A stretch of DNA of 5,645 bases from Lachnospiraceae bacterium UBA3645 (GTDB taxonomy: Bacteria; Bacillota; Clostridia; Lachnospirales; Lachnospiraceae): NCBI GenBank assembly GCA_002373555.1, contig DFKM01000031.1:1-5645 (forward strand). The letters are read 5' to 3'. This document shows positions 771 through 1,055 of this stretch, one piece after another (positions within the stretch are counted from its first letter, which is position 1; each line of letters starts with the position of its first letter). Position numbers and translations under genes: made by a program. Below the pieces are notes generated by a model, which was not told the origin of the DNA, did no database searches, and saw nothing but the letters and a program-made list of their open reading frames with translations.

Positions 771-779
771 GGAAAAATG

Positions 780-821
780 AAAAGCACAGCATTCCGGGGG
801 AGACCGGTATGCTGTGCTTTT
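780..821. terminator. Bidirectional intrinsic terminator after glutamine synthetase
   Basis: A 13-bp stem pairs AAAAGCACAGCAT-type bases 780-792 with 809-821. One T-T mismatch follows, then CCGG (794-797) pairs with CCGG (804-807), closing a 6-nt loop. The plus-strand stem ends in TTTT (818-821). The minus strand ends in TTTTCATTTTTCC (783 down to 771), a better U-tract, so the element can also end a transcript coming leftward from the intergenic region. It lies 9 nt after the glutamine synthetase stop. Confidence 0.9.
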
Positions 822-850
822 ATCTGAAATAGAGTTTCTGCCAAAAGGAT

Positions 851-879
851 GAAGCTCCCGCACCACCTGCGAGAGCTTC
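851..879 (-). other. Stem-loop in the predicted small RNA
   Basis: GAAGCTC (851-857) pairs with GAGCTTC (873-879), and CGCA/TGCG pairs (859-862 with 868-871) lie inside, closing a 5-nt loop (863-867). T850-A880 extends the stem by one pair. On the minus strand position 858/872 is a G·U wobble, giving an uninterrupted stem. On the plus strand it is a C-A mismatch. No T-run follows on either side, so this is an RNA structure and not a terminator. Confidence 0.7.
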
Positions 880-897
880 ACATTATGAAAGGGAGGA

Positions 898-913
898 AGT
901 CGCAAATGCGACT
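898..913. repeat. Perfect 7-bp inverted repeat around an ATG
   Basis: AGTCGCA (898-904) and TGCGACT (907-913) are exact inverse complements separated by two A residues. On the plus strand the start codon of the 19-codon ORF (906-908) sits in the tip of this hairpin. On the minus strand it forms the first hairpin of the predicted small RNA, where a loop of this kind could serve for initial contact between sense and antisense transcripts. Confidence 0.65.
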
Positions 914-965
914 GTTTATGAAAAAAATGATCGGTTGGCTTGCTTTCTTTATGCTTATATACTAA
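906..965 (+). CDS. Candidate 19-aa hydrophobic membrane peptide (type I toxin-like), uncertain
   Basis: The ORF encodes MRLFMKKMIGWLAFFMLIY and ends in TAA. It has a basic N-terminus (R2, K6, K7) followed by about 12 hydrophobic residues, enough for one short membrane segment. GGGAGG (891-896) lies 9 nt upstream, a near-ideal ribosome binding site. Size and composition resemble short type I toxins such as the 18-19 aa Ibs peptides of E. coli, but no sequence homology is claimed. The minus-strand promoter at 954-981 overlaps its 3' end and would give an RNA antisense to nearly the whole ORF and its ribosome binding site, as in type I systems. Against it: I see no convincing plus-strand promoter between the terminator (821) and the ATG, and the ribosome binding site may simply be the complement of a C-rich motif in a real minus-strand sRNA. 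Confidence 0.35.
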   Translation: MRLFMKKMIGWLAFFMLIY

Positions 966-981
966 TCGGCAGAAATGTCAA
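954..981 (-). promoter_or_regulatory. Sigma-A type promoter, leftward, for the predicted small RNA
   Basis: Read on the minus strand, a perfect -35 TTGACA (981-976) is followed by a 16-bp spacer and a -10 TATAAG (959-954, five of six consensus). The predicted start is a purine near 946-948. No gene on the minus strand lies within reach: transcription would run into the small ORF, the hairpins and the terminator at 821-780. This indicates a noncoding transcript. Confidence 0.65.
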
Positions 982-1055
982 ACCCGTGATTTCGGTGTAA
1001 ACGATTTGATAATTAAATATGAACAGACTATGAACGATGACACGTGAGGCGTTCC

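Follow-up and report, generated by a model that had tools for sequence, protein, structure and literature searches.

A predicted clostridial small RNA with two putative anti-start-site arms behind a shared operator

The window, i.e. the whole 5,645-nt stretch of DNA analysed, contains a predicted small RNA (sRNA) gene that appears to belong to a real and widespread family, for which no earlier description was met in the literature searched. At 1035–843 (-) it combines an operator, a promoter and a covarying element, which together quite probably specify an sRNA of ~105 nt, activated by a likely OmpR-family response regulator and acting as a start-site clamp. Confidence is high for the strand and structure of the predicted sRNA, good for its control through a common operator, moderate for the two-arm clamp and low for the particular targets and the signal. 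Model searches find the element in about half of the sampled family genomes, far more widely than one window could reveal.

The locus and the ends of the predicted RNA

The gap that hosts the RNA on its minus strand separates a glutamine synthetase gene (stop at 770; Pfam Gln-synt_C-ter) from ppi (start at 1167; Pfam Pro_isomerase), and transcription is expected, from the sequence, to start at ~947 (Table 1). A preliminary description of this DNA had read here a TTGACA-16-TATAAG promoter, with boxes found at 980–975 and 958–953 of the minus strand, followed by two hairpins and an unpaired CCTCCC linker; this layout was recovered as hairpin 913–898, linker CUUCCUCCC and hairpin 881–849. Minus strand 947–774 folds at -64.4 kcal/mol (z -7.13), a value equalled by none of 200 shuffles. 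The proposed length of about 170 nt has to be shortened to ~105 nt, since hairpin 881–849 is the last one common to relatives and is terminator-like, placing the 3′ end likely near 843. Hairpin 821–780 was set aside as the 3′ end because it fits a glutamine synthetase terminator and, among the relatives, was seen to persist just in L006 and L007, the two closest. Since that hairpin serves the glutamine synthetase gene, one might regard the gap as a mere terminator region devoid of an RNA function of its own; this is extremely improbable, as the covarying core is found again, together with operator and promoter, in varied gene contexts. On the other side of the operator, back to back with it, lies a plausible plus-strand promoter for ppi-ddl-murI (TTGACA-17-TACTAT, 1056–1084).

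Table 1. Features read or predicted in the gap (positions in the window)
Feature	Position	Strand	Basis or remark
Operator, four units, 11-nt spacing	996..1035	-	matrix score 39.4
-35 box TTGACA	975..980	-	sequence; same letters in L006 and L007
-10 box TATAAG, 16-nt spacer	953..958	-	sequence; same letters in L006 and L007
Predicted sRNA, ~105 nt	843..947	-	ends predicted from promoter position and from hairpin 881–849 followed by a T-rich tail
5′ arm UUUUUUUCAUAA, U-rich, ending in CAUAA	916..927	-	sequence; common to relatives
Covarying hairpin AGUCGC-AUUU-GCGACU	898..913	-	fold and covariation; outside every search pattern
3′ arm CUUCCUCCCUUU	888..899	-	19-mer copies in the genus
Last conserved hairpin, terminator-like, loop GGUGG	849..881	-	position and loop alike in most genus copies
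Hairpin of the glutamine synthetase terminator	780..821	both strands readable	possible back-up terminator of the RNA
19-codon ORF behind GGGAGG	906..965	+	judged an antisense shadow, not a gene

Arms, hairpins and strand

The two single-stranded arms read as complements of a translation start. UUUUUUUCAUAA is complementary to UUAUGAAAAAAA, a start codon with Lys codons, and CUUCCUCCCUUU to AAAGGGAGGAAG, a Shine–Dalgarno (SD) sequence. The 5′ arm was part of the two-arm search pattern described below and is hence selected in the loci found that way. In alignment A7, 94.1% of the cells of the hairpin between the arms are paired, versus 76.4% upon shuffling (none of 500 shuffles reached the observed value) and no more than 45.8% after sliding, and double changes occur in eight of the nine hairpin pairs. 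Alignment A8 (89 rows) gives 98.4% versus 70.4% upon shuffling, but it is model-fitted and leans towards the model. Covarying stems had been named beforehand as an observation that would support the RNA, and the core is indeed conserved and covarying, more than expected by chance.

The strand can be read from several features. Terminator-like sites follow the hairpin in the sense direction in 44 of 66 relatives versus 2/66 in antisense, -10-like boxes are present in 56/66, and 12 G-U cells are counted versus 4 A-C cells. Terminators, -10-like boxes and G-U bias all indicate the minus strand. Together with the covarying hairpin, the conserved CCUCCC arm and the common operator, the terminators on this strand favour the earlier proposal of a minus-strand sRNA with an exposed anti-SD patch. 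In some relatives (L089 and L122), CCUCCC could itself pair inside the terminator stem.

The statement that no coding frame explains this stretch needs correction: a plus-strand frame does exist at 906–965. Read as a gene, it would encode a 19-residue membrane peptide with its own SD and an upstream hairpin; GGGAGG, ATG and stop codon are in good register, and L006 and L007 have the same letters. The frame is intact, however, only in the window and these two relatives, and was rejected as a gene, being lost in the other genus members read: it is broken or absent in L008, L009 and L010 to L013, where the hairpin pairs are kept. As operator, terminators and G-U bias also indicate the opposite strand, a peptide gene is very improbable, and the frame resembles a shadow, in reverse complement, of an RNA shaped as an anti-start-site.

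Conservation in the genus of the window

Blast detected a portion of the gap in 8/11 genus genomes, and the 19-mer CTTCCTCCCTTTCATAATG has eight copies without mismatch in 7/11. Including a decayed-looking copy in G201, in which hairpin and CCUCCC are both degraded, the genus holds nine copies in 8/11 genomes. Hairpin variants differ in sequence and length and are still able to pair (AGUCGC/GCGACU, GUCGUC/GACGAC and GGCUG/CAGCC); for the G206 copy, the MFE fold lacks the hairpin. A second place in G206 matched by model R1 (L065), with core-like letters and no operator (score -21.1), was left out of the count.

The operator

An element absent from the preliminary description sits just before the -35 box, namely an array of the units GTTCATA (1035–1029), GTTCATA (1024–1018), ATTATCA (1013–1007) and GTTTACA (1002–996). 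A scoring matrix was trained on 65 upstream regions of other genera (training median 40.8), 64 of which score at least 17.8 in this matrix trained on those same regions and share the consensus ~(G/A)TTCATA-N4-GTTCATA-N4-ATT.AAA-N4-TT.A, with 11-nt unit spacing. All 65 regions offered 170 nt of upstream sequence; in L095, the stretch read contains no operator (-12.7). Elsewhere in the window, two overlapping placements score 6.0 and -3.4 and the next best site -7.9, and 2000 first-order Markov versions of the gap do not exceed 11.4. Copies in the window's genus score 40.8 (L057), 33.8 (L058), 33.6 (L061 and L062) and 24.7 (L060); in neither of the two G208 copies can an operator be recognised (9.0 and 0.4).

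Starting from the operator leads back to the RNA. In 20 genomes, the operator pattern has 22 sites, of which 19 precede such RNAs (15 before R1 or R2 matches; L253, L254, L266 and L268 before RNAs read by eye) and three look like chance; it matches no site in the four of these genomes that belong to the window's genus. In 11 further genomes, 9/13 sites precede such RNAs. Over 1.23 Mb, mostly DNA taken around these RNAs, strong sites stand before a core of either type in 173 of 178 cases.

Boxes bound by OmpR-family response regulators repeat every 11 nt. A response-regulator-type operator, recognised by its sequence only, precedes the predicted sRNA promoter, and its 11-nt repeats suggest a binding site for a regulator that is likely of the OmpR family. 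No response regulator gene recurs beside the RNA among the neighbours inspected in relatives; the recurrent ones are ppi, aldolase, whiA, HPr, rapZ, murB and symporter genes (names given by eye from sequence).

Two known types of box come close. PHO boxes resemble the operator in spacing and in TT.A.A units, and the fourth unit of the window contains TTTACA, so that the 11-nt repeats might be a PHO box and the RNA part of the phosphate-starvation (PhoP) regulon. Against this, the matrix gives no score above 5.0 around nine pstS-like genes, of which five exceed the family cut-off, versus an RNA median of 40.8, in genomes that partly differ from those of the matrix; membership in this regulon seems improbable. 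The HssR box of the heme sensor system is presumably a repeat GTTCATATT-N2-GTTCATATT, very near the first two units of the operator; here, four units are found, and no HrtAB-like gene was recognised behind the 13 and 22 operator sites looked at.

Distribution in the family and the class

Direct blastn of the gap against 200 family genomes gave, besides the window's own, two weak and unrelated-looking matches, so that models were needed. Model R1, built from five sequences, matches 12 of 397 genomes; besides the window's own (844–932), the matches in G169, G065 and, less surely, G026 were kept. The eight other places, without operator and core, were rejected, and two of the genomes concerned, G286 and G311, do have R2 matches (elsewhere in the case of G311).

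An exact pattern for the two arms finds at least 119 stretches in named genomes. Among the matches listed, 69 of 80 loci were kept and 11 were dropped by eye for want of a proper hairpin or matching surroundings (L087, L098, L109, L127, L129, L130, L135, L148, L154, L162 and L164). The pattern fixed the arms only and left free the hairpin between them and the upstream region, yet both are conserved. Kept loci among these matches are mostly titled Lachnospiraceae or its genera, and named isolates carrying the RNA include Lacrimispora, Butyrivibrio, Enterocloster and Mediterraneibacter; the family in question is likely Lachnospiraceae.

Model R2 was built from 29 sequences, none from the window's genus; window-type rows were left out because MAFFT misplaced their hairpin. 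It matches 193/397 family genomes, corresponding to 156/319 good ones and 161/334 genera, with two to four copies in some; the count of 193/397 refers to the CCUCCC type, the second RNA type described below being mostly missed. In a class-wide sample searched with strict filters, 10 of 391 genomes match, all ten in the family, with no match among the ~375 genomes outside it (16/391 are family members). On the window alone, R2 scores 32.9 bits at 885–929 (E 4.1e-5; next match 8.6 bits), which stays below the genome-wide cut-off in the window's own genome in both the family and the class-wide searches. Since this score is too weak for the genome-wide cut-off, the window's genus is viewed as a divergent branch.

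Several features of individual loci deserve mention. Two tandem sRNA copies are present in G065 (L046, 1501–1610 and 1725–1835, minus strand), with operator scores of ~30 for both. In G169, the sRNA has a Clostridiales-1 RNA of Rfam (L045, 1061–1220, plus strand, 96.4 bits) some hundreds of bases away. Among the matches listed, the sRNA is often immediately preceded by the end of a ppi gene in the same orientation (18 ORFs in 69 loci; e.g. L107, L086, L114 and L261), while sRNA and ppi are divergent in the window. L112, an operator-bearing member, comes from a 240-kb contig whose title reads uncultured Bacteroides; the bin may be mislabelled. The operator is also present in four of the 37 viral contigs with the pattern (L351, L355, L370 and L378), in all of which an integrase-like gene ends 257–283 nt upstream of the sRNA core; in L378, this gene corresponds to Pfam Phage_integrase and a phosphofructokinase gene then follows. 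Such elements may integrate beside the sRNA gene.

A second and a possible third RNA type

A second type of RNA stands behind the same operator and displays the same CAUAA arm, a hairpin and an anti-SD arm of the form CUCCUC. Its members are L209, L213, L215, L216, L253, L254 and L266, three of which adjoin a ppaC-like gene; L216 alone among the seven is matched by R2. A third type may exist in L204 (~1501–1620): a lexA-like gene there is preceded by an operator-like site, after which come CTCCCCCTCATAAG and a hairpin resembling a terminator.

Relation to known RNAs

No Rfam family accounts for the RNA. A search of the window with E up to 10 returned six rows, all far under gathering scores; at gathering, no family fits the sRNA in 18 relatives; and for nine loci, a search with E up to 1 yielded two rows, both well short of their gathering scores. 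ST7-OT4_3, Clostridiales-2, PyrR and the other Rfam rows, being below gathering scores, were judged chance. Clostridiales-2 RNA (RF02937) reaches 21.5 bits on the opposite strand of L111, against a gathering score of 58.6, and is seen in one of nine relatives in the sub-gathering search and in 0/18 at gathering. That the RNA was not recognised as 6S, SRP, tmRNA or RNase P RNA agrees with Rfam, which matches none of these. In the open-access literature searched, no earlier report of this RNA was recognised.

The closest parallels are functional. Streptococcal csRNAs are, according to excerpts of PMC3091779 and PMC8186281, driven by CiaR and proposed to act through unpaired regions complementary to SD and AUG. 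Likenesses drawn from the same excerpts are a direct-repeat operator with 11-nt spacing (TTTAAG-N5-TTTAAG in csRNAs) and short RNAs with hairpins and unpaired anti-SD/anti-start stretches, several per genome (PMC3091779, PMC8186281). The window's RNA does possess unpaired sequence complementary to SD and start codon, on two arms split by a hairpin, whereas both complementary stretches of csRNAs, as far as the excerpts describe them, lie in an unpaired region. The operator letters and the taxon differ too: the box TTTAAG-N5-TTTAAG is absent before the promoter, where the array reads GTTCATA/GTTCATA/ATTATCA/GTTTACA, with four GTTCATA-like units.

Rfam holds an LhrC family, and no row for it appeared for the window (E up to 10), the 18 relatives (gathering) or the nine loci (E up to 1). 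In the excerpts of PMC4132741, LhrC1-5 of Listeria are multicopy, LisRK-dependent RNAs that block surface-protein mRNA through CU-rich sites, with no LisR consensus known. Multicopy occurrence and CU-rich sites are common to both systems, and the two-component control described there is predicted here (PMC4132741, same excerpts); LhrC has several redundant CU-rich target sites, whereas the present RNA has one CCUCCC arm. The best reading is by analogy: the RNA would work like csRNAs and LhrC and be filed under neither, as sequence, operator and layout differ; it is set apart from them because the CiaR box is absent and no Rfam model fits.

Proposed mechanism and candidate targets

In the proposed mechanism, a response regulator, likely of the OmpR family, would bind the operator and activate the promoter. 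On one mRNA, the 3′ arm CCUCCCUUU would then pair with AAAGGGAGG at the ribosome-binding site, and the 5′ arm UUUUUCAUAA with UUAUGAAAAA at the start codon. The arms are arranged as antiparallel pairing requires, the hairpin between them would stay closed, and translation of target mRNAs would be blocked by their clamped start sites. Since mRNAs opening with AUGAAAAA often encode exported proteins, the RNA might damp these, binding proteins of ABC importers first and, as the analogy to csRNAs and LhrC suggests, perhaps under envelope stress.

Candidate targets were sought as exact sites AAGGGAGG-N(3-11)-ATGAAAAA, of which 16 genomes contain 24, with 23 opening ORFs of at least 100 aa. Cofolding of 16 candidate sites, each with the sRNA from its own genome, gave pairing of both arms and an intact hairpin in every case; the 5′ arm lies on the start codon in 15/16 and on a second, downstream AUGAAAAA in L279. 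All 400 control start sites are outdone by L286 and L290, and the weakest candidate, L289, is equalled or beaten by 44/400; because candidate sites were chosen by complementarity, these cofolds speak for feasibility only. A Pfam scan of 18 of the 23 candidate proteins found 11 solute-binding proteins and two permeases of ABC importers. A lipobox is present in 11/23 candidates versus 5/31 control genes opening with ATGAAAAA (p 0.017; the motif was home-made and the test post hoc). In a background sample of 597 genes, 15 start with ATGAAAAA, nine have AAGGGAGG and none has both; the dual motif is not clearly enriched over ~63 Mb (23 ORFs observed versus ~18 expected by independence), and no recurrent target emerged from the candidate genes of the 16 genomes.

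This lack of clear enrichment would also suit an anti-SD sRNA that seeds through the CCUCCC arm alone, with the U-rich CAUAA arm serving, for example, protein binding or stability. CCUCCC by itself suits many ribosome-binding sites, and Listeria LhrC acts through CU-rich sites, according to the excerpts of PMC4132741. Yet CAUAA, the start-codon complement, is kept in genus copies that were found without that arm in the search, and it is also present in the second RNA type, found via the operator alone and endowed with another anti-SD arm. Seeding by CCUCCC alone is on balance unlikely, and a two-arm clamp of the start site is preferred with moderate confidence.

A broader proposal is put forward tentatively, as a possibility that may well need revision. 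In about half of Lachnospiraceae, a single response regulator would have RNA as its only output from strong sites, namely between one and four sRNAs with two arms each, belonging to two anti-SD types that share the operator, which would clamp SD and AUGAAAAA on the same mRNAs for exported proteins, above all nutrient-uptake lipoproteins.

Biological meaning

If the prediction is true, a major family of gut bacteria would possess a broad sRNA regulon that is absent from Rfam release 15, a clostridial counterpart of csRNAs and LhrC. Such an RNA would also illustrate how an anti-start-site sequence can mimic, on its other strand, a persuasive small ORF complete with SD and ATG. The named isolates that carry the RNA make regulator, signal and targets testable, and it would become testable whether Firmicutes have long and generally signalled through RNAs of this anti-start-site kind.
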